DNA of 64,000 nt from Phycisphaerae bacterium. GTDB lineage: Bacteria; Planctomycetota; Phycisphaerae; Phycisphaerales; UBA1924. This document shows, in pieces, positions 38,905-48,508 of this stretch (positions are counted from its first letter, which is position 1; each line of letters begins with the position of its first letter). The notes under the pieces are model-generated. The model ran no database searches, was not told the DNA's origin, and worked only from the letters and a program-made list of their open reading frames with translations. Location: positions 498,001 to 562,000 of the forward strand of contig JAUIES010000002.1 in assembly GCA_030429705.1 (NCBI GenBank), given 5' to 3'. Made by a program: the position numbers and the translations under genes.

Positions 38905-38917
38905 TGGTCGCGCACTG

Positions 38918-39270
38918 TTTCTGATGCGTCACGCTTTGTTTGTGTTTCGTCGCGCGGCGTTGATGGTGCGTTTGACATCATTGGTGATGCGTCGCGCGGC
39001 ACTTTTGATGCGTGCGAAATGATTGGTGATGCGTCGCTCAGGACTTTTGACGCATGCGAAAGCGTTTCGCATGCGTGTGAAGGCGTTTCGCATGCATCGC
39101 GCAGCGTTTTTGATGCATGTGAAATCGTTTCGCATGCGTCGCGCACCGTTTCATATGCATCGCGCACAGTTTCAGATGCGTCGCGCAGCGTTTCGCACGC
39201 ATACGAAATCGTTTCACACGCATCGCGCAGAGCAGCAGACGCATCGCGCACAGCAGCAGACGCGTCTTTT
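38918..39270. repeat. Degenerate tandem array of 21-bp units
   Basis: Sixteen complete 21-bp units at 38918-39253 and a partial seventeenth follow each other without any insertion or deletion; a weaker unit may precede. The commonest form is close to TTTCGCATGCGTCGCGCAGC plus G. Two types mix: one ending CGTCGCGCAGCG and one ending CGTGCGAAATCG. Units 4-5 and 6-7 form a 42-bp higher-order pair. Substitutions at unit positions 8 (T/C) and 11 (G/A) are wobble changes in one plus frame (V-S-H-A-S-R-S heptads) and in the opposite minus frame (L-R-D-A-C-E-T heptads). The minus frame has a possible GTG start at 39287 with GAAGG upstream, but it would run into the serine hydrolase 3' end, so no CDS is called. 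Confidence 0.85.
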
Positions 39271-39581: not shown

Positions 39582-41246
39582 GTGGCGAAGAAGCGAACGA
39601 AGAAGACCGAGACGAAAACCACGACCACCTCGAACGGCAACGGCGGGGCCATCGGGTTTGAAGAGAAACTCTGGACGGCCGCCGACAAGTTGCGTGGCTC
39701 GATCGACGCCGCCGAGTACAAGCATGTGGTCCTTGGTCTCCTGTTCCTCAAATACATCTCGGATGCCTTCCAAGGGCGGCGCGAGGAGCTGGAGAAACTC
39801 TGCAAGACCCCGAAGTCCGACTACTTCACCGACGGTGACGAAGACTGGACCAACCAGACCCTCGAAGACCGCGATGAGTACGCCTCCAAGAATGTCTTCT
39901 GGGTGCCGCCCGAAGCCCGGTGGTCGCAACTGCGGGCCCAGGCCAAGCGGCCCGACATTGCCAAACTGCTTGATGACGGCATGTTCTCGATCGAGCGAGA
40001 CAACCCGAGGCTCAAAGGCGTGCTGCCGCGCGACTACGCCCGGCGCGGCATCCCCGCCGAGCGGCTCGGCGAACTGATCGACCTGATCTCCGGCATCGGG
40101 CTTGGTGATGCCGAGTCCCGGGCCAAAGACATCCTCGGGCGAGTGTATGAATACTTCCTCGGCAAGTTTGCCGCCGCCGAAGGAAAACTCGGCGGCGAGT
40201 TCTTCACGCCCAAGTCCGTGGTCACGCTGCTCGTCGAGATGATCGAGCCGTACAAGGGGCGGGTCTATGACCCATGCTGCGGATCGGGGGGGATGTTTGT
40301 CCAGAGTGAGCGGTTCGTCGAAGCCCACGGCGGCAAGGCGACCGACATTTCCATTTATGGTCAGGAATCGAACCCGACCACCTGGAAACTGTGCAACATG
40401 AATCTCGCCCTGCGCGGCATCGAGGCCCACCTCGGCGAATCACACGCCGACAGTTTTAAGCGCGACCTGCACCGCGACCTCAAGGCCGACTTCATCCTCG
40501 CCAATCCGCCCTTCAATATCTCGGACTGGGGCGGGGCGAGCCTGCGCGACGATGTCCGCTGGAAGTACGGCACGCCCCCGGTCGGCAATGCGAACTACGC
40601 GTGGATTCAGCACTTCGTGCATCACCTCGCCCCGAACGGCATCGCGGGCTTCGTCATGGCCAATGGGTCGATGTCGTCGAACTCGAGCGGCGAGGGTGAT
40701 ATCCGCAAGGCAATGGTGGAAGCCGACCTCGTCGATTGCATGATCGCCCTACCGGGTCAGTTGTTCTTTACCACGGGTATCCCGGTCTGTCTGTGGTTCG
40801 TGACGCGCAGCAAAGCCGGAGTCAAACTGGCGGGCAAGACCTTGCGTGACCGCCGCAAGCAGACACTGTTTATCGACGCCCGCAAACTCGGAACACTCGT
40901 CAACCGAACGCTGCGGGAACTCTCCGCCGAGGAGATCACCCGCATCGCCGACACCTACCACGCCTGGCGGGGCGAGGCTCCGAAGGGGCAACCCAAGTAC
41001 GAAGACATCGCCGGGTTCTGCAAATCGACCACCACCAAAGAAATCGAAGGCCACGGCTTCGTGTTGACCCCCGGGCGGTATGTCGGGGCTGAGGATATCG
41101 AGGACGACGGCGAGCCGTTCGAGGAGAAGATGGCCCGGTTGACGGCAACGCTCCGGGACCAGTTTGCCGAGTCCAACACACTCCAAACCCAAATCGAGGC
41201 GAATCTCGCATTGGTGGCCGCCGCTTCAACGCCGGAGGTCGACTGA
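39582..41246 (+). CDS. hsdM: Type I restriction-modification system methyltransferase subunit HsdM
   Basis: A 554-aa N6-adenine methyltransferase subunit. Residues ~25-60 form the N-terminal HsdM helical domain ([20 protein letters not shown]), [18 protein letters not shown] leads into the SAM-binding motif [12 protein letters not shown] (~227-238), and the catalytic motif is [14 protein letters not shown] (~304). It modifies the sequence chosen by HsdS. The GTG at 39582 follows GGCGAGCG. The first 20 residues are Lys/Thr-rich and probably disordered. The stop overlaps the RhuM-family ATG by one base (TGATG), so the operon is tightly coupled. Confidence 0.95.
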
Positions 41247-42283
41247 TGGCGGAACCTGCACCAGATTCGGGCATCCTGCTCTTTCAGCCCAATGATGGAG
41301 GCGATGCCTTGCGGGTTCGGATCGAGGGTGAGACGGTCTGGCTCAATCGGCATCAGATCGGCGCGTTGTTCCAGATCTCACCGCCAACCGTCCACGAACA
41401 CCTGAAAAACATCTATTCCGATGAGGAACTCGACCCAACCCCAACTATTCGGAAATTCCGAATTGTTCAAACCGAGGGTTCCCGACGGGTCGAACGGCTT
41501 CTTGACCACTACAACCTCGATGCCATCCTCGCCGTCGGTTTCCGCGTCCGCTCCAGCCGCGGCACCCAGTTCCGCCAGTGGGCCACCGCCACCCTGGGCG
41601 AGTACCTCGTCAAGGGCTTCGCCATGGACGACGAGCGGCTCAAGGCGGGCCGCACCCTCGGCAAGGACTACTTCGACGAGTTGCTGGCGCGGATCCGCGA
41701 CATCCGGGCCTCCGAACGCCGCTTCTACCAGAAGATCACCGACATCTACGCCACGAGCATTGACTACGCCAAGGATGATTCGCTCACCAAGGCGTTCTAC
41801 GCCACGGTCCAGAACAAGCTCCACTGGGCCATCACCGGCCACACCGCCGCCGAGATCATCAAAGGGCGAGCGAGTGCGGCCAAGCCCAACATGGGCCTGA
41901 CCACCTGGAAGAACGCCCCGGCGGGCCCGATCCGCAAGGGCGACATCACCGTGGCCAAGAACTACCTCTCGGCTGAAGAGATCGATGCCCTCAACCGCAT
42001 TGTCACGATGTATCTCGACTACGCCGAAGATCAGGCCAGCCGACGCCATCCGATGCACATGGCCGACTGGGCGGCGAAACTCGATGCCTTCCTCCAGTTC
42101 AACGAGCGGAACATCCTGACCCACGCGGGCACGGTGTCGGCGGAACTGGCCAGGCGGCACGCCGAGCGACAGTTCGATCAACACGAAGAGGCCCGGCGGC
42201 TGCGTGAAGCGAGCGAGCCCACGAGCGACTTTGACAAGGTGGTGGAGAAGGCGAAGCGGATGGAGGGGGGCGGGGATGAGTAG
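41246..42283 (+). CDS. RhuM-family protein
   Basis: A 345-aa protein of the RhuM (virulence RhuM) family. The N-terminal region ETVWLNRHQIGALFQISPPT is an HTH-like segment, followed by VHEHLKNIYSDEEL and the core LDHYNLDAILAVGFRVRSSR with TQFRQWATATLGEYLVKGF. The C-terminal half is helical (DIYATSIDYAKDD, TGHTAAEIIKGRASAAKPNM). The name derives from a Salmonella pathogenicity island gene; the biochemical role is unknown. Members are often found inside type I restriction operons, as here between hsdM and hsdS, so a regulatory or toxin/anti-restriction accessory role is likely. It overlaps hsdM by 1 base and hsdS by 8. Confidence 0.9.
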   Translation: MAEPAPDSGILLFQPNDGGDALRVRIEGETVWLNRHQIGALFQISPPTVHEHLKNIYSDEELDPTPTIRKFRIVQTEGSRRVERLLDHYNLDAILAVGFRVRSSRGTQFRQWATATLGEYLVKGFAMDDERLKAGRTLGKDYFDELLARIRDIRASERRFYQKITDIYATSIDYAKDDSLTKAFYATVQNKLHWAITGHTAAEIIKGRASAAKPNMGLTTWKNAPAGPIRKGDITVAKNYLSAEEIDALNRIVTMYLDYAEDQASRRHPMHMADWAAKLDAFLQFNERNILTHAGTVSAELARRHAERQFDQHEEARRLREASEPTSDFDKVVEKAKRMEGGGDE

Positions 42284-43679
42284 GGCTCACCCAGTTACTA
42301 AGACCGGGGGGCGCTTAGCGACGACTGGCCACATCGCGGGCGATTGCGTGCTCGCTGTCGGCAAGCCACCAAACGAACCTTCGCCTGGCTGGGAATGGCA
42401 TCGCCTCACTGACCTCGCCCGCCTTGAGACAGGCCACACACCGAGCCGCAAACACCCCGAGTATTGGGATGGTGGAATCCCGTGGATCGGAATCCGAGAT
42501 GCAACGGGGAATCATGGGTGCGTACTGGATGACACCATCCAGCATGTTTCACAGGAGGGCATCGACAACTCGTCAGCTCGGGTGCTACCTGCGAACTCTG
42601 TCTGCCTCTCAAGGACCGCATCAGTCGGCTATGTCGTCGTCATGGGCAAACCAATGTCGACCAGTCAAGACTTTGTCAACTGGGTGTGCAATCCGGAACG
42701 TCTCGACTACCGGTATCTCAAGTACGCTTTGCTCGCTGAACAGACAAGTTACGCCCGTTTCTCCCATGGGACTACCCATCAAACGATCTACTTTCCCGAA
42801 GTCAAGGCATTTCATCTCTGCGCTCCCAAGTTGGATGAGCAGAAAGCAATTGCGGATATACTGTCTGATCTCGACGACAAGATTGAGTTGAACCGGCGGA
42901 TGAACCGCACGCTGGAGCAGATGGCGGCGGCGATCTTCAAGGCGTGGTTCGTGGACTTCGAGCCAGTCCGGGCCAAGGCCAGCGGGGCCACCTCCTTCCC
43001 CAGCATGCCCCAGCCCACCTTCGACGCCCTCCCAACCACCTTCGCCGATTCCGAGCTTGGGCCGATTCCGGACGGGTGGGAGGTCATGCCCATCGGTGAC
43101 GCCGTCCAGATCAAGGGTGGTGGGACGCCAAGCACAAAGACGCCCGACTTCTGGGACGGCCCACATCATTGGGTTACGCCGAAGGACCTGTCAGGTCTGA
43201 GTGATCCCATCCTGCTCGACACTTCTCGGTGTCTGACGGATGCGGGGCTCGCCAAGGTCAGTTCGGGCCTTCTGCCACGAGGAACCGTGCTGCTGTCCTC
43301 TCGGGCCCCGATCGGCTATCTGGCAATCACTGCGATCGAAACTGCCATCAATCAGGGCTTTATCGCCATGCTGCCCGGCGGAAGTCTTCCACCGTCGTAC
43401 CTGTTGAACTGGGCCTCGTACTACCTGGATGACATCAAGGGCAACGCCAACGGCACGACGTTCCAAGAGATCAGCAAGAAGAACTTCAGACCGCTGAGGG
43501 CGATCGTTCCTTCGCCCGAAGTTACCGATGACTTCCAGTCGATCGTCGGACCGCTGTACGATCAGGTACGGCTCAATATGCAGGAGTCCACGACGCTTGC
43601 TGAGGCTCGGGATGCCCTGCTTCCGAAGTTGCTGTCAGGTGAGGTGCGGGTCCTCAGTGACAAAGCAGTGATGGTGTAG
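42276..43679 (+). CDS. hsdS: Type I restriction-modification specificity subunit HsdS
   Basis: A 467-aa DNA-recognition subunit with two target-recognition domains. TRD1 covers ~25-185 (GWEWHRLTDLARLETGHTPS, GGIPWIGIRD), followed by the central conserved helix DEQKAIADILSDLDDKIELN...LEQMAAAIFKAWFVDFEPVR. TRD2 begins LGPIPDGWEVMPIGDAVQIK and ends at the C-terminal helix AEARDALLPKLLSGEVRV. ATG 42276 has a G-rich site upstream and overlaps the end of the RhuM-family gene. The TRD sequences are variable across species, so the recognition site cannot be read from the sequence. It is followed after 2 bp by the kinase gene. Confidence 0.94.
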   Translation: MSRAHPVTKTGGRLATTGHIAGDCVLAVGKPPNEPSPGWEWHRLTDLARLETGHTPSRKHPEYWDGGIPWIGIRDATGNHGCVLDDTIQHVSQEGIDNSSARVLPANSVCLSRTASVGYVVVMGKPMSTSQDFVNWVCNPERLDYRYLKYALLAEQTSYARFSHGTTHQTIYFPEVKAFHLCAPKLDEQKAIADILSDLDDKIELNRRMNRTLEQMAAAIFKAWFVDFEPVRAKASGATSFPSMPQPTFDALPTTFADSELGPIPDGWEVMPIGDAVQIKGGGTPSTKTPDFWDGPHHWVTPKDLSGLSDPILLDTSRCLTDAGLAKVSSGLLPRGTVLLSSRAPIGYLAITAIETAINQGFIAMLPGGSLPPSYLLNWASYYLDDIKGNANGTTFQEISKKNFRPLRAIVPSPEVTDDFQSIVGPLYDQVRLNMQESTTLAEARDALLPKLLSGEVRVLSDKAVMV

Positions 43680-43681
43680 TC

Positions 43682-44611
43682 ATGTATCCCATTGAAACCG
43701 TCGATTCTCAACGTGCGATCTCCTACGAGCAACTTGGCACCAAGAAGAAATTCTGGTACGAAGATGATGAAGGCCGGTTGAAACTCTTTAAAGCCGAAGA
43801 GCGCGGATACGGCGAAGATTGGTCAGAGAAGATCGTGTGTGAGCTGGCCGGACCGCTGGGCATCCCTCGTGTCCACTACGACATGGCCCTCGATATCGCC
43901 ACCAAAGTGCCAGGTGTCGTCTGTGCCGACTTCCAAATGGAAGGTCAACAGTTGGTCCACGGCAACACCCTGCTTCAAGTGCAAGACCCGAAATATCCTA
44001 AAAACACGCTCCGTGTTGCCTCGCACACGATCGATGCTGTGTACGAAATCCTTCGATGGCTCGCGCCGCCGGAACTACGCTGGAACAAGGACTCGCCAGC
44101 CGAGATGACCAATGGGGCCGAGGTGTTTTGCGGCTACCTCCTGCTCGATGCCTGGGTCGCCAATCAGGACCGCCATCATGAGAACTGGGCCGCAATCTGG
44201 GATATCAATGCGCCGCAGCGAGACCAGTTTCGGCTTGCGCCGTCGTACGACCATGGCTCCAGCCTGGCTCGAAATGTGAGCGACAAGGAAAAGGCGCGAC
44301 GGCTCCGATCGACTGACTCTGGCTACCGCATCGTTACCTTCGCCCGGCGTGCCCGTTCCAAACTTTTCGCATCAGCCGAGGACGAACGACCGCTACGGAC
44401 CCTCGACGCGTTTCTGGCGTTCTCTCGGCAAGTGCCGGAGGCAGCGACCATCTGGCGGGATCGGCTTCAACGCATCAAGGAAACGACCATCACGAAAGTC
44501 CTCGCGGAAGTGCCCCCGAATCGATTGTCAGCCGTGGGTCGAGATTTTACGCTACAGTTGCTTCTGGAGAACCGCAGACGGATACTGGAATCGCGAGAAA
44601 CAGAGGAATGA
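43682..44611 (+). CDS. HipA-like kinase core (HipT/CtkA-like)
   Basis: A 309-aa protein with the fold of HipA-type serine/threonine kinases but without HipA's ~100-residue N-terminal subdomain. It opens with a Gly-rich loop-like LGTKKKFWYEDD and an ATP-binding Lys in LKLFKAEERGYGEDWSEKIV (~33-50). The catalytic loop is WVANQDRHHENWAAIWD (~158-174; Asp, His and Asn in place) and the metal-binding loop APSYDHGSSLARN (~188). HipA-family kinases phosphorylate translation factors or tRNA synthetases and arrest growth. It lies 2 bp behind hsdS, and its stop overlaps the HIRAN gene start by 4 bp (ATGA). No HipB-like HTH antitoxin is adjacent. Confidence 0.82.
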   Translation: MYPIETVDSQRAISYEQLGTKKKFWYEDDEGRLKLFKAEERGYGEDWSEKIVCELAGPLGIPRVHYDMALDIATKVPGVVCADFQMEGQQLVHGNTLLQVQDPKYPKNTLRVASHTIDAVYEILRWLAPPELRWNKDSPAEMTNGAEVFCGYLLLDAWVANQDRHHENWAAIWDINAPQRDQFRLAPSYDHGSSLARNVSDKEKARRLRSTDSGYRIVTFARRARSKLFASAEDERPLRTLDAFLAFSRQVPEAATIWRDRLQRIKETTITKVLAEVPPNRLSAVGRDFTLQLLLENRRRILESRETEE

Positions 44612-45384
44612 CCAGCAACCTTTTCGTAGCATGGCGTTCGGGTAATCCGAGCGAGAGCACTTGGGGACCGGTCGGTGTGTTGGAACGAACGCCGAGCGGT
44701 GGCTATCGATTTACCTATACGCACGGTGCCCAATCTCTCGCAGGGTTTCACGCATTCCCGGGCATGTCACGCTTCGACGAAGTCTATGAATCCGACGAAC
44801 TGTTTCCAATGTTCGCCAACCGGCTGCTCAATCAGAGCCGACCCGAGTATCGGCCCTCGCTGGTGTGGAGTGGGTTCGACCCCGACAACCCCCCCGACCC
44901 GATCCAACTCCTCGGCGTGACCGAGGGACGGCGACAGACCGACTCGCTCGAAGTGTTTCTGTGCCCGCAGCCGGACTCGGATGGGTGCTTCGTAGCGAAG
45001 TTCTTCCTGCACGGTCTTCGGCACGCACGGCCCGAAGCGATCGCGAGAGTCAATCAACTTCAACCTGATGAAGAACTTCGGATCGTGCCGGAACCCGACA
45101 ACCAGTATGATCGATATGCGGTCGCTGTCTGGACGAACGGGGCCGAGGAGTATCGAATCGGCTATGTGCCTCGTTACCTGGCACGAGACATCCGACGGCT
45201 GCACGAATACTGCGACCCCGAGTTTTTATCATTGCGAGTCCAGCGCGTTAACCCAAGTGCTCCCTTGCAACAGCGGGTGCTTTGTCGCATGAATGCGTGT
45301 TGGCCCGATGGTTTTCAACCCTGTTCTGGTCGCGAGTTTCGACCGATCGGCTCCAGCAATGGCAGCCGAACAGCGGTACAGTAA
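44608..45384 (+). CDS. HipA N-terminal-like domain fused to HIRAN domain
   Basis: A 258-aa protein. Residues ~15-75 ([20 protein letters not shown], then [20 protein letters not shown]) follow the pattern of the HipA N-terminal subdomain: a Val-Gly-x-Leu strand, a Phe-x-Tyr strand and a final Phe-Pro-x-Phe helix. Residues ~120-215 are a HIRAN domain ([41 protein letters not shown]), known from SNF2-family proteins as a module that binds DNA 3' ends. Coupled to the kinase gene by a 4-bp overlap, it looks like the missing N-terminal part of a split HipA carrying a DNA-sensing module, which would make it the kinase's regulator. This role is inferred. The last ~40 residues overlap the hsdR start. 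Confidence 0.72.
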
Positions 45385-48300
45385 GACCGTGCAAGAGGCA
45401 GATATTGAACTGGCTGCATTGAAGTGGTTTCAAGACTTGGGATACGCGCTGCGTCACGGTCCCGAGTTCTCGCCTGGTGCCGCCGGTGCTGAACGAGCCA
45501 CCTACAGCGACATCATCCTCGTCGATCGGCTCCGCAGCGCCCTCCTCACCATCAACCCCGATATCCCCGTCGCGACCATCGACGAAGTCATCAAGCACCT
45601 CCAGCGGCCCGAGGCCCCCACCCTCATAGAAAACAACCGCGCCTTCCACACGCTCCTCCGCGACGGCGTCGATGTCGAGTACCGACTCCCCGATGGCTCG
45701 GCCAAAGGCGACAAGGTCTGGCTCTTTGACTTCACCGACCCCGATCGCAATGACTGGCTCGCCGTCAATCAGTTCACCGTGGTCGAATCGCGCGGCACCA
45801 ACCAGCACAACCGTCGGCCCGACATCGTCGTCTTCGTCAATGGCATCCCCCTGGCCGTCATCGAACTCAAGAACGCCGCCGACGAGAACGCCACCGTCTG
45901 GAGCGCGCACAAGCAACTGCAAACCTACAAGGCCGAGATCCCGAGCCTGCTCAATACCAACGCCCTCCTGCTCGTGAGCGATGGCAACGAAGCCCTCGTC
46001 GGCTCGCTCACCGCGGGCAAGGACCGCTTCACCCCGTGGCGGACCACCGACGGCGAAACCGTCGCCGCCGTCTCGCAGCCACAGCTCGATGTCGCCATCA
46101 AAGGCATCTTCGACCGCCGCTGGCTGCTCGACTATGTTCGCAACTACACCGTCTTTGAAGCAACCGACGAGCACATCGTCAAGAAGATCGCGGCCTACCA
46201 CCAGTTCCACGCGGTCCGCAAAGCCATCGACACCACCATCACCGCCGCCCGGCCCGATGGTGACCAGCGCGCGGGTGTCATCTGGCACACGCAGGGCTCG
46301 GGCAAGAGCCTGACCATGCTCTTCTACGCCGGGCGACTCGTCGAACAGGCCGAACTCGAGAACCCGACCATCGTCGTCCTCACCGATCGCAACGATCTCG
46401 ACCAGCAACTCTTCGCCACTTTCTCTGGCGGCCGAGCCCTGCTGAGACAAACACCCGAGCAGGCTGACGACCGCGACAACTTGCGTGAACTCCTCAAGCG
46501 AGCCAGCGGCGGCGTGGTGTTTACCACGATTCAGAAGTTCCTGCCCGATGACATTGACGGCGTGCGCGGGAACGAACACCCGCTGCTCTCCGATCGTCAC
46601 AACATCATCGTCATCACCGACGAAGCCCATCGGAGCCAATACGGACTCAAAGCCAAAATCGACAAAGAGACCGGCCAGAAAAGTTACGGCTTTGCCAAGT
46701 ATTGCCGAGACGCGCTGCCCAACGCGACCTTCATCGCCTTTACCGGAACGCCCGTTGAAAGCACCGATGTCAGCACACGCGGCGTCTTTGGTAACGAAAT
46801 CGATGTCTATGACATCCAGCGAGCCATCGAAGACAAAGCCACCGTGCCGATCTATTACGAAGCGCGGCTCGTCAAACTCGGGCTCGATGCAGCGATCACC
46901 GAAACCATCGATGACGATATTGACGAACTGACCGAAGGCCAAGAGCTCTCCGAAAAAGAGAAACTCAAGACCAAGTGGGCCGCCATCGAAGCGATTGTCG
47001 GTGCCGACGAACGCATCGAACAAGTGGCCGAGGACATCGTCAACCACTTCGAGGATCGTCTGTCCGGCATGGATGGCAAAGCGATGATCGTCGGCATGTC
47101 TCGAAGGATATGTGTGGACCTGCACGACGCCATTGTCAAACTCCGCCCCGAGTGGTTCCATGAAGACGATGACAAAGGCGCTCTCAAGGTCGTCATGACC
47201 GGGAATGCGAGCGACGGGCCGGCGTTTGCCAAGCATGCTCGCAACAAGGCGAGGCGCGGTGAACTGGCCAAGCGGTTCAAGAACCCCGCCGACCCGCTCC
47301 GGATGGTCATTGTCCGCGATATGTGGCTGACCGGGTTCGATTGTCCTTGTCTGCACACGCTGTATGTTGACAAGCCGATGGCGGGTCACAATCTCATGCA
47401 GGCCATCGCCCGCGTGAACCGTGTCTTCCATGACAAACCCGGCGGGTTGATCGTCGATTACATCGGGATTGCCTTCAACCTCAAGAAAGCACTGAAAACA
47501 TACACACAAAGCGGCGGCCAAGGCGCGACCACGATTGATCAAGAGCAGGCCGTCGCGGTGATGAAAGAGAAGTTTGAGCGAGTCAAAGACATGTATCATG
47601 GTTTTGACTACAGCCGCTTCTTCTCGGCATCCGCAGCCGATCGAGTGGCGGTCATCCCGGCGGCGATCGAGCATGTGCTGGCGCTTGACGACGGCAAGAA
47701 ACGCTATCTGCAAGTCGTCCTTGAACTCGCCAAGGCCTTTGCGTTGGCCGTGCCTCACGACAAAGCACTCGAGATCCGCGAAGATGTCGGCTTCTTTCAA
47801 GCGGTCCGAGCAGGCATCGTCAAAAGCACGGTCAGCGGCGGCCCATCGCCCGAAGACCTCGATCTGGCCGTTCGGCAGATCGTCTCGAAGGCGGTCGCGT
47901 CTGAAGGTGTCCTCGACATCTTCAAGGCTGCCGGTCTCAAGAGCCCCGACCTGTCCATCCTCTCCGATGAGTTCCTCGAAGATGTGCAGGGCATGCCACA
48001 GAAGAACCTCGCCTTCGAGATGCTGCGAAAGCTTATCAACGACGAAATCAAAGTGCGCGGCACGAAGAACATCGTCGAGGCCCGCTCGTTCAGCACCCGT
48101 CTGCAAGAGTCCATTCTCAAATATCAGAACCGAAGCATCGAAACAGCAGAGGTCATTCAGGAACTGATCGAGTTAGCCAAGCGACTTCGCGAAGCCCAGC
48201 AACGCGGCGACAGCCTCGGACTCAATGAATCCGAGATCGCGTTCTACGATGCTCTTGCTGATAATGAGAGTGCTTCGACGCTCCTTGGCGACGAAACACT

Positions 48301-48508
48301 CAAACAGATCGCCCGCGAACTTGCCGACCGTATCCGCAAGAGCGCCACCATTGACTGGACTATTAAAGAAACTGTGCGAGCCGAAATGCGAGCCATGGTC
48401 CGCAGATTGTTACGCAAGTATAAATACCCCCCTGATCTTCAGGAGGCCGCCACAGAACTGGTTCTAGCGCAAGCAGAAACGCTGGCCACGAGTTTGACAG
48501 TACCGTAG
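45359..48508 (+). CDS. hsdR: Type I restriction endonuclease subunit HsdR
   Basis: A 1049-aa motor and nuclease subunit. The PD-(D/E)xK nuclease is [20 protein letters not shown] (~153-172). Helicase motifs are [12 protein letters not shown] (Walker A, ~308), [24 protein letters not shown] (~418), IAFTGTPVE, and [16 protein letters not shown] in the second RecA domain. A C-terminal helical part follows. With HsdM and HsdS it translocates DNA and cuts at a distance. The start is uncertain: ATG 45359 ([10 protein letters not shown]) gives a normal N-terminus and a short overlap with the HIRAN gene; the in-frame ATG 45293 would overlap more. A very long antisense frame over this gene is not supported. 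Confidence 0.94.

Follow-up and report, generated by a model that had tools for sequence, protein, structure and literature searches.

A hipIN-type kinase and its HipN partner within a type I restriction operon, flanked by hsdS and hsdR

What is a short HipA-type kinase doing between the specificity and endonuclease genes of a type I restriction operon, and what could the HIRAN protein encoded directly behind it contribute? The two genes lie in a 64,000-nucleotide stretch of DNA from a Phycisphaerae bacterium (the window; contig JAUIES010000002.1, positions 498,001 to 562,000), to which the window coordinates below refer. A sequence-only reading had described them as a split HipA, a toxin–antitoxin-like pair in which a module that binds DNA ends could make kinase inhibition depend on DNA damage or restriction products. 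The pair is a member of hipIN, a kind already described: Gerdes, Baerentsen and Brodersen (2021) define hipIN by HipI, a kinase of reduced length, and HipN, which is encoded behind it and joins a HipS-like to a HIRAN domain; they propose HipN as the neutralising partner of HipI and HIRAN as a sensor of phage DNA ends that triggers abortive infection (PMC8262856). As their text gives the same architecture and hypothesis, the idea of a split HipA that senses DNA ends through HIRAN is largely a rediscovery. The useful addition of the window locus is its placement, a hipIN pair inside a type I operon, with hsdS before and hsdR after it, in what looks like a cargo slot.

Anatomy of the locus and of the two proteins

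Six closely packed genes on the plus strand make up the locus, in the order hsdM, rhuM, hsdS, kinase, HIRAN protein and hsdR. The features are as follows:

39582..41246, + strand, hsdM, type I DNA methyltransferase subunit (Pfam N6_Mtase 5.2e-107, HsdM_N 4.5e-26)
41246..42283, + strand, RhuM family protein, operon accessory gene (Pfam Virulence_RhuM 1e-116; PADLOC PDC-S05 1.9e-147)
42204..43679, + strand, hsdS, type I specificity subunit (Pfam Methylase_S 1e-41); listed from a GTG, an uncertain start, and the real one may be further in
43682..44611, + strand, HipI-type short Ser/Thr kinase without HipA N-subdomain-1 (PADLOC PDC-M03A 7.8e-100; HipA_C; K37, D163, N168, D190)
44608..45384, + strand, HipN, HipS/HipA-N-subdomain-like (aa ~2-120) plus HIRAN (aa ~124-244) (PADLOC PDC-M03B 3.8e-83; Pfam HIRAN 8.7e-12; fold)
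44611..44967, + strand, stretch coding for the HipS-like domain, aa 2-120 (fold, profile-profile comparison and conservation)
44977..45339, + strand, stretch coding for the HIRAN domain, aa 124-244 (Pfam and fold match)
45359..48508, + strand, hsdR, type I restriction endonuclease/translocase (TIGR00348 hsdR 2.3e-182; T1RH-like_C, SWI2_SNF2, HSDR_N)

The hsdR start at 45359, which gives a 26 bp overlap with the end of hipN, is likely judging from the sequence. Two base pairs separate the hsdS stop from the kinase start, and kinase and hipN, two ORFs in different frames, overlap by 4 bp (ATGA); both the extent of the pair given earlier (43682-45384) and this overlap were exact. The 3.49-Mb genome holds one copy of the kinase. 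A promoter scan detected no plus-strand site, which is weak evidence either way. Just upstream of hsdM, a tandem repeat array with 21/42/63/84-bp periods occupies window positions 38916-39266 and is open in several frames on both strands.

The kinase is 309 aa long. Its match to Pfam HipA_C falls under the family cut-off (E 2.7e-5), and each of the 84 aligned kinase sequences matches HipA_C at E<=0.01. K37, D163, N168 and D190 are invariant in the same alignment (84/84); by HipA motifs we take them to be the ATP lysine, the catalytic loop and the metal site. The column of T20, in a segment that we assign to the Gly-rich loop, holds Thr in 69 sequences, Ser in 14 and Asn in 1 (n=84). A PDB search with the kinase profile finds CtkA at E 5e-14. 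The fold was made for the closest relative, L055 (59% identical to the window kinase), rather than for the window kinase, and the kinase part of this model matches CtkA with a Z score of 26.4, HipT (8ezs_B) with 18.7 and HipA (3tpb) with 17.4. Because the alignment of the L055 model with HipA starts only at HipA residue 122, the ~120-residue N-subdomain-1 of HipA is missing from the kinase, as the earlier reading had it; the core is whole but has no lid. In named genomes, the nearest relatives of the kinase come mostly from Planctomycetota, several of them Phycisphaerales.

The missing subdomain has its counterpart in the partner. Since the Pfam model of the HipA N-terminal domain, Couple_hipA, scores below its cut-off in the window HipN (E 0.013; E<=0.05 in 30 of 81 aligned HipN sequences), chance similarity was checked first, and it is ruled out by the fold and profile evidence. 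The AlphaFold model of HipN, made with 81 sequences, reaches pLDDT 93.5 and pTM 0.88, and its residues 2-120 match HipS 7vkb_B (Z 10.1, 2.1 A over 101 residues), E. coli HipS 7ab3_E (Z 9.6) and the HipA N-terminus 2wiu_C (Z 9.1). In hhalign, a one-to-one comparison, 36 HipN N-domains align with 8 HipA/HipS N-domains, taken from genomes of the window's order, over 95 columns (Prob 93.9, E 1.6e-7). We read the N-terminal domain as homologous to the HipA/HipS N-domains rather than similar by chance, on the strength of model and profiles. The HipN profile, searched against the PDB up to E 10, finds only lp_0118 and HLTF HIRAN chains (6 sequences) and no HipS, so the HipS likeness rests on fold and profile-profile comparison. 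The claim that the partner joins a segment folding like the HipA N-subdomain to a HIRAN domain is thus borne out; the extent of the HipS-like domain, earlier put at residues ~15-75, had to be corrected to about 2-120.

In HipN, a conserved ELFPxFxNR...RP(E/D)Y segment covers aa 64-81, with R78 kept in 81, P79 in 78, E/D80 in 81 and Y81 in 79 of 81 sequences. HipS blocks HipT by a Trp65, near Glu63, that is inserted into the HipT active site, as reported in PMC10627512. The conserved HipN residues 78-81 (RPEY) lie near the corresponding loop, and HipN Tyr81 may be the direct counterpart of this Trp65; in the hhalign comparison, however, the HipS motif (PEGW) falls four residues earlier, on residues 74-77, which vary and immediately precede RPEY.

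HipN residues 123-244 match lp_0118 (3k2y_D, Z 13.5) and HLTF HIRAN (5bnh_A, Z 11.2, a structure with ssDNA; 4xzf_A, Z 10.8), and Pfam HIRAN (PF08797) is found at E<=0.05 in 80 of 81 aligned sequences. The HIRAN signature is largely kept, with N165 in 80, D168 in 77, G185 in 81 and Y186 in 78 of 81 sequences. P219, conserved in 80 of 81, seems by eye to stand at the place of HLTF Phe142, which serves duplex binding according to PMC8262856; a proline there would fit the single-strand binding suggested in the same text.

The pairing extends beyond the window. HipN follows the kinase directly in all 133 loci compared, 53 of them viral, many being near-copies, and 80 from genomes (the best 80 of 397 relatives found); at 80% identity the 133 loci form 86 kinase clusters and 80 HipN clusters. 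The largest gap between the two genes among the 80 genome loci is 112 bp. A later viral set, mostly from the same contigs as the first, has both proteins in 74 of 74 cases. Kinase and HipN distances correlate (Mantel r 0.82 over 71 pairs, with 0 of 2000 permutations as high), and one viral contig (IMGVR_UViG_2636415485_000001) carries a natural fusion of the HipL type, L316:3932-5482, a single ORF with the kinase at aa 4-284 and HipN at 289-510. Near-constant pairing and this fusion support the earlier reading of the two genes as a pair. When kinase and HipN of L055 were folded as one chain, the model reached pLDDT 91.5 and pTM 0.79. Mutually unplaced halves would be expected to give a pTM of about 0.53 from their size fractions (a reasoned value rather than a control run, and pTM is a global score), so the model places the two proteins with some confidence.

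There are exceptions to the intact pair. On an Oscillatoria plasmid (NC_019730.1, L330:3853-4738) a complete HipN stands behind the last ~41 residues of a kinase, with XisH/XisI genes nearby, and on a Mycolicibacterium plasmid (NZ_CP126903.1, L331:1773-4816) an IS110 transposase gene separates the kinase and HIRAN genes. Broken kinase frames are seen in L050, L100, L143, G195 and L297. Among 392 genomes of the window's phylum there are 12 kinase matches, two of them weak: nine show HipN, G179 is cut by a contig end, and G324 and G362 are without either protein by the models. In the two phage records examined, a Vibrio phage under Vinavirales (L151:3971-5685) and a Clostridioides phage (L150:2905-4494), an integrase gene follows the pair directly.

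Related systems

All anatomical features examined agree with published hipIN: the short kinase without N-subdomain-1, the Ser/Thr beside the Gly-rich loop (present in most members, per PMC8262856) and the downstream gene for a HipS-like and a HIRAN domain. The window pair differs in being embedded between hsdS and hsdR; the word 'restriction' occurs 0 times in the main text of that article. Both proteins also match PADLOC models of adjacent proteins over nearly their full length, PDC-M03A (7.8e-100) and PDC-M03B (3.8e-83), and PDC-M03 is listed in PADLOC as a phage defence candidate. PMC12988326 and PMC13092281 credit the PDCs to Payne et al. 2024 (bioRxiv 10.1101/2024.01.29.577857), and PMC13092281 names this preprint among its references for a PIN domain and HipA kinase that had been validated. 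A literature search, with Payne et al. 2024 outside its reach, found no experiment on any hipIN member.

HipL, the fused form of hipIN (PMC8262856), has the same three domains in the same order on one polypeptide, whereas the window encodes them in two genes. HipBST resembles the window pair as a split HipA whose N-subdomain is a separate protein of the same fold. However, HipS precedes HipT, carries no HIRAN and is accompanied by HipB, whereas the window partner follows the kinase and carries HIRAN, and a Pfam scan of eight locus proteins found no HipB-like protein, in line with the earlier remark that none is adjacent. A split hipA of another layout occurs in a genome of the window's order (L320:523-1705), where a HipS-like gene, matching HipS structures at about 1e-15, lies upstream of a HipT-like kinase.

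EcoprrI/PrrC and RloC share with the proposed hipIN function an effector that disables translation; PrrC is tied to type I restriction genes, and RloC is rarely so but responds to DNA breaks (PMC3874165, PMC2610378, PMC3874168). Both are tRNA anticodon nucleases with ABC ATPase motifs, unlike the HipA-type kinase of the window. HipAD / DS-6 also combines a HipA-family kinase with a non-HipB partner, as described in PMC13092281, and its defence is lost on mutating a predicted catalytic residue; its partner is a DUF3037-DUF1829 protein rather than HipS or HIRAN. A 2025 paper places HipA-HIRAN clusters beside deoxydinucleotide nucleases (PMC11706625).

Inhibitor or activator: the role of HipN

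We consider the window pair most likely to be a hipIN module, carried as cargo by the type I operon, in which HipN holds the kinase inactive and releases it through HIRAN, a reading that we hold to be moderately probable. The HipS-like domain of HipN would sit on the kinase and keep it inactive, and HIRAN would bind exposed 3' or single-stranded DNA ends, whether of phage DNA on its way in or in replication, of degraded DNA or of fragments cut by restriction. Bound ends would release or reorient the kinase. Once freed, it would phosphorylate an essential host protein, by analogy perhaps an aminoacyl-tRNA synthetase, and growth would stop; in the window operon this would form a second line of defence behind restriction. 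For this reading stand the pairing with its matched divergence and natural fusion, the invariant kinase residues, the HipS and HIRAN folds of HipN, the tandem model of L055, the HIRAN signature and the precedent of HipS blocking HipT. The defence context counts for it too, namely the PDC-M03A/B match, the phage integrase neighbours and the cargo found in the slot. The HipN that persists with a kinase remnant on the cyanobacterial plasmid would make sense if the danger came from the kinase. Against inhibition, the fused form tethers the HipS-like domain permanently, unlike a labile antitoxin, the alignment gives HipN no firm counterpart of HipS Trp65, and the pairing has the exceptions named above.

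The main rival turns the role of HipN around. In HipA, the N-subdomain is part of an active kinase, and a HipS-like domain therefore need not inhibit. HipN could instead be an activating or targeting subunit, its lid completing an active HipI-HipN kinase that HIRAN brings to DNA ends, where DNA-bound proteins would be phosphorylated. The L316 fusion, which keeps kinase, lid and HIRAN permanently joined, speaks for such an enzyme, as does the lack of a HipB-like repressor among the eight locus proteins scanned, and constant pairing fits a two-subunit enzyme equally well. However, the detached N-subdomain homologue of HipBST is an antitoxin (PMC10627512), HipN resembles HipS about as much as the HipA N-domain (Z 10.1 vs 9.1), and a HipN kept with no more than a remnant of its kinase fits an antitoxin better. 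An activating HipN is possible and, on these grounds, rather doubtful.

If inhibition by HipN with release through HIRAN is true, hipIN would be a phage-defence switch, a kinase toxin controlled by direct sensing of DNA ends, and a hipIN pair embedded among restriction genes would be a clean place to ask whether restriction products are the signal.

Restriction genes and the hsdS-hsdR slot

Among the best 80 of 397 relatives, the pair is immediately flanked by hsdS in front and hsdR behind in 11 loci, and hsdR directly follows it in three more (L057, L072, L077). Two genomes of the window's phylum, G278 and G368 (L136, L137), also have the window's gene order. In L057, HsdR-like pieces lie on both sides of the pair. 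Of these 80 genome loci, 25 show an hsd match at some point of the stretch retrieved, and 21 show one within 1 kb of the pair. Some matches are weak (L119 25 bits, L097 36 bits, L113 53 bits; in the later viral set a single 21-bit HsdM match, L306). The scan used models made from the window's own hsd genes, which distant restriction types may escape; the upstream HsdR of L120 needed Pfam. In L120:7551-14606, from a gammaproteobacterium, the genes of a different type I family are ordered hsdR, kinase, HipN, hsdS, hsdM, apparently a separate embedding of the pair, and in L094:2212-8895 the pair lies directly downstream of the gene for a single-chain type ISP restriction enzyme, with overlapping ORFs. 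A quick tree of 93 kinases puts the 12 rows with the order hsdS-kinase-HipN-hsdR inside one group of 33 rows (SH-aLRT 97), where a further 17 rows have no hsd label and 4 a partial one, with five changes of state.

No hsd match was found in 55 of the best 80 genome loci out of 397 (20 of the 55 having <3 kb on one side), nor in any of the 53 viral loci. Restriction dependence as a general, defining role of hipIN is rejected on these counts. With most loci lacking an hsd match, a link between hipIN and restriction is possible but not required, and restriction is no general trigger; the earlier suggestion that restriction products are the specific trigger is correspondingly weakened.

The same counts stand against a PrrC-like guard, in which HipI-HipN would be silenced by HsdMSR or would sense its products, and would fire once the enzyme is disturbed, be it by anti-restriction proteins of a phage or by DNA degradation. 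There is precedent: prrC lies inside a type I operon, whose enzyme keeps PrrC sequestered until T4 infection sets it free (PMC3874165; cf. PMC2610378), and RloC responds to DNA breaks (PMC3874168). The order hsdS-kinase-hipN-hsdR in 11 of the best 80 genome loci, in the window and in G278 and G368 counts for such a guard, the order in L120 and the type ISP neighbour in L094 suggest repeated recruitment, and in one related operon (L183) an AAA_13 gene with a match to the PrrC model fills the same slot. However, many unrelated genes fill this slot, so position alone may mean a hotspot, and we regard the guard as unlikely.

The variety of the slot emerged from a survey of related operons. A close HsdR (E<=1e-100) is present in 56 of the 392 genomes of the window's phylum, and of the 25 places ranking next to the window, 20 were read upstream of hsdR (L182-L201); left out were G142 and G269 (contig ends), G203 and two known hipIN carriers. 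The hsdS-hsdR gap is shorter than 200 bp or absent in 4 of the 20 and measures 626-4809 bp in the other 16. In 10 of these 16 gaps, the cargo gives matches to defence families, known or candidate:

L183: AAA_13 with PDC-S06 and PrrC-model match
L187: CHAT with PDC-S11
L189: PDC-S14 and PDC-S01
L191, L192: PDC-S11
L193: Fic/SoFic
L195: KAP NTPase
L196: PDC-M24B
L199: GmrSD and PDC-M04A
L201: RhuM

The other six hold a transposase, weak matches or nothing among the part of their cargo ORFs that was scanned. In these operons of the phylum, the hsdS-hsdR gap appears to be a slot whose cargo varies from one operon to the next.

An addiction or passenger module in a permissive insertion slot, stabilising the operon or hitch-hiking with it, is improbable: it would account for the kinase matching in 12 of the 392 phylum genomes (two weakly) vs 56 with a close HsdR, and for the state of the slot in the 20 relatives read (4 with a short gap or none, 16 with other contents), but not for the strong conservation of the kinase residues and most HIRAN signature residues, the candidate defence genes in 10 of 16 filled slots, or the lack of a transcription-repressing antitoxin among the eight locus proteins scanned.

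A bolder extension, to which we give little credence, would make the hsdS-hsdR gap of this type I operon family a site reserved for interchangeable suicide effectors of a second line; for hipIN, the trigger would be read by HIRAN, so that DNA ends left by restriction, or phage DNA that had slipped past it, would switch the kinase directly and join cutting and cell arrest in one response. With their differing cargo at one and the same position, the related operons could help in the search for further effectors. In L108:3079-4185, a gene for a SIR2-domain protein lies between hsdS and the kinase-HIRAN pair.
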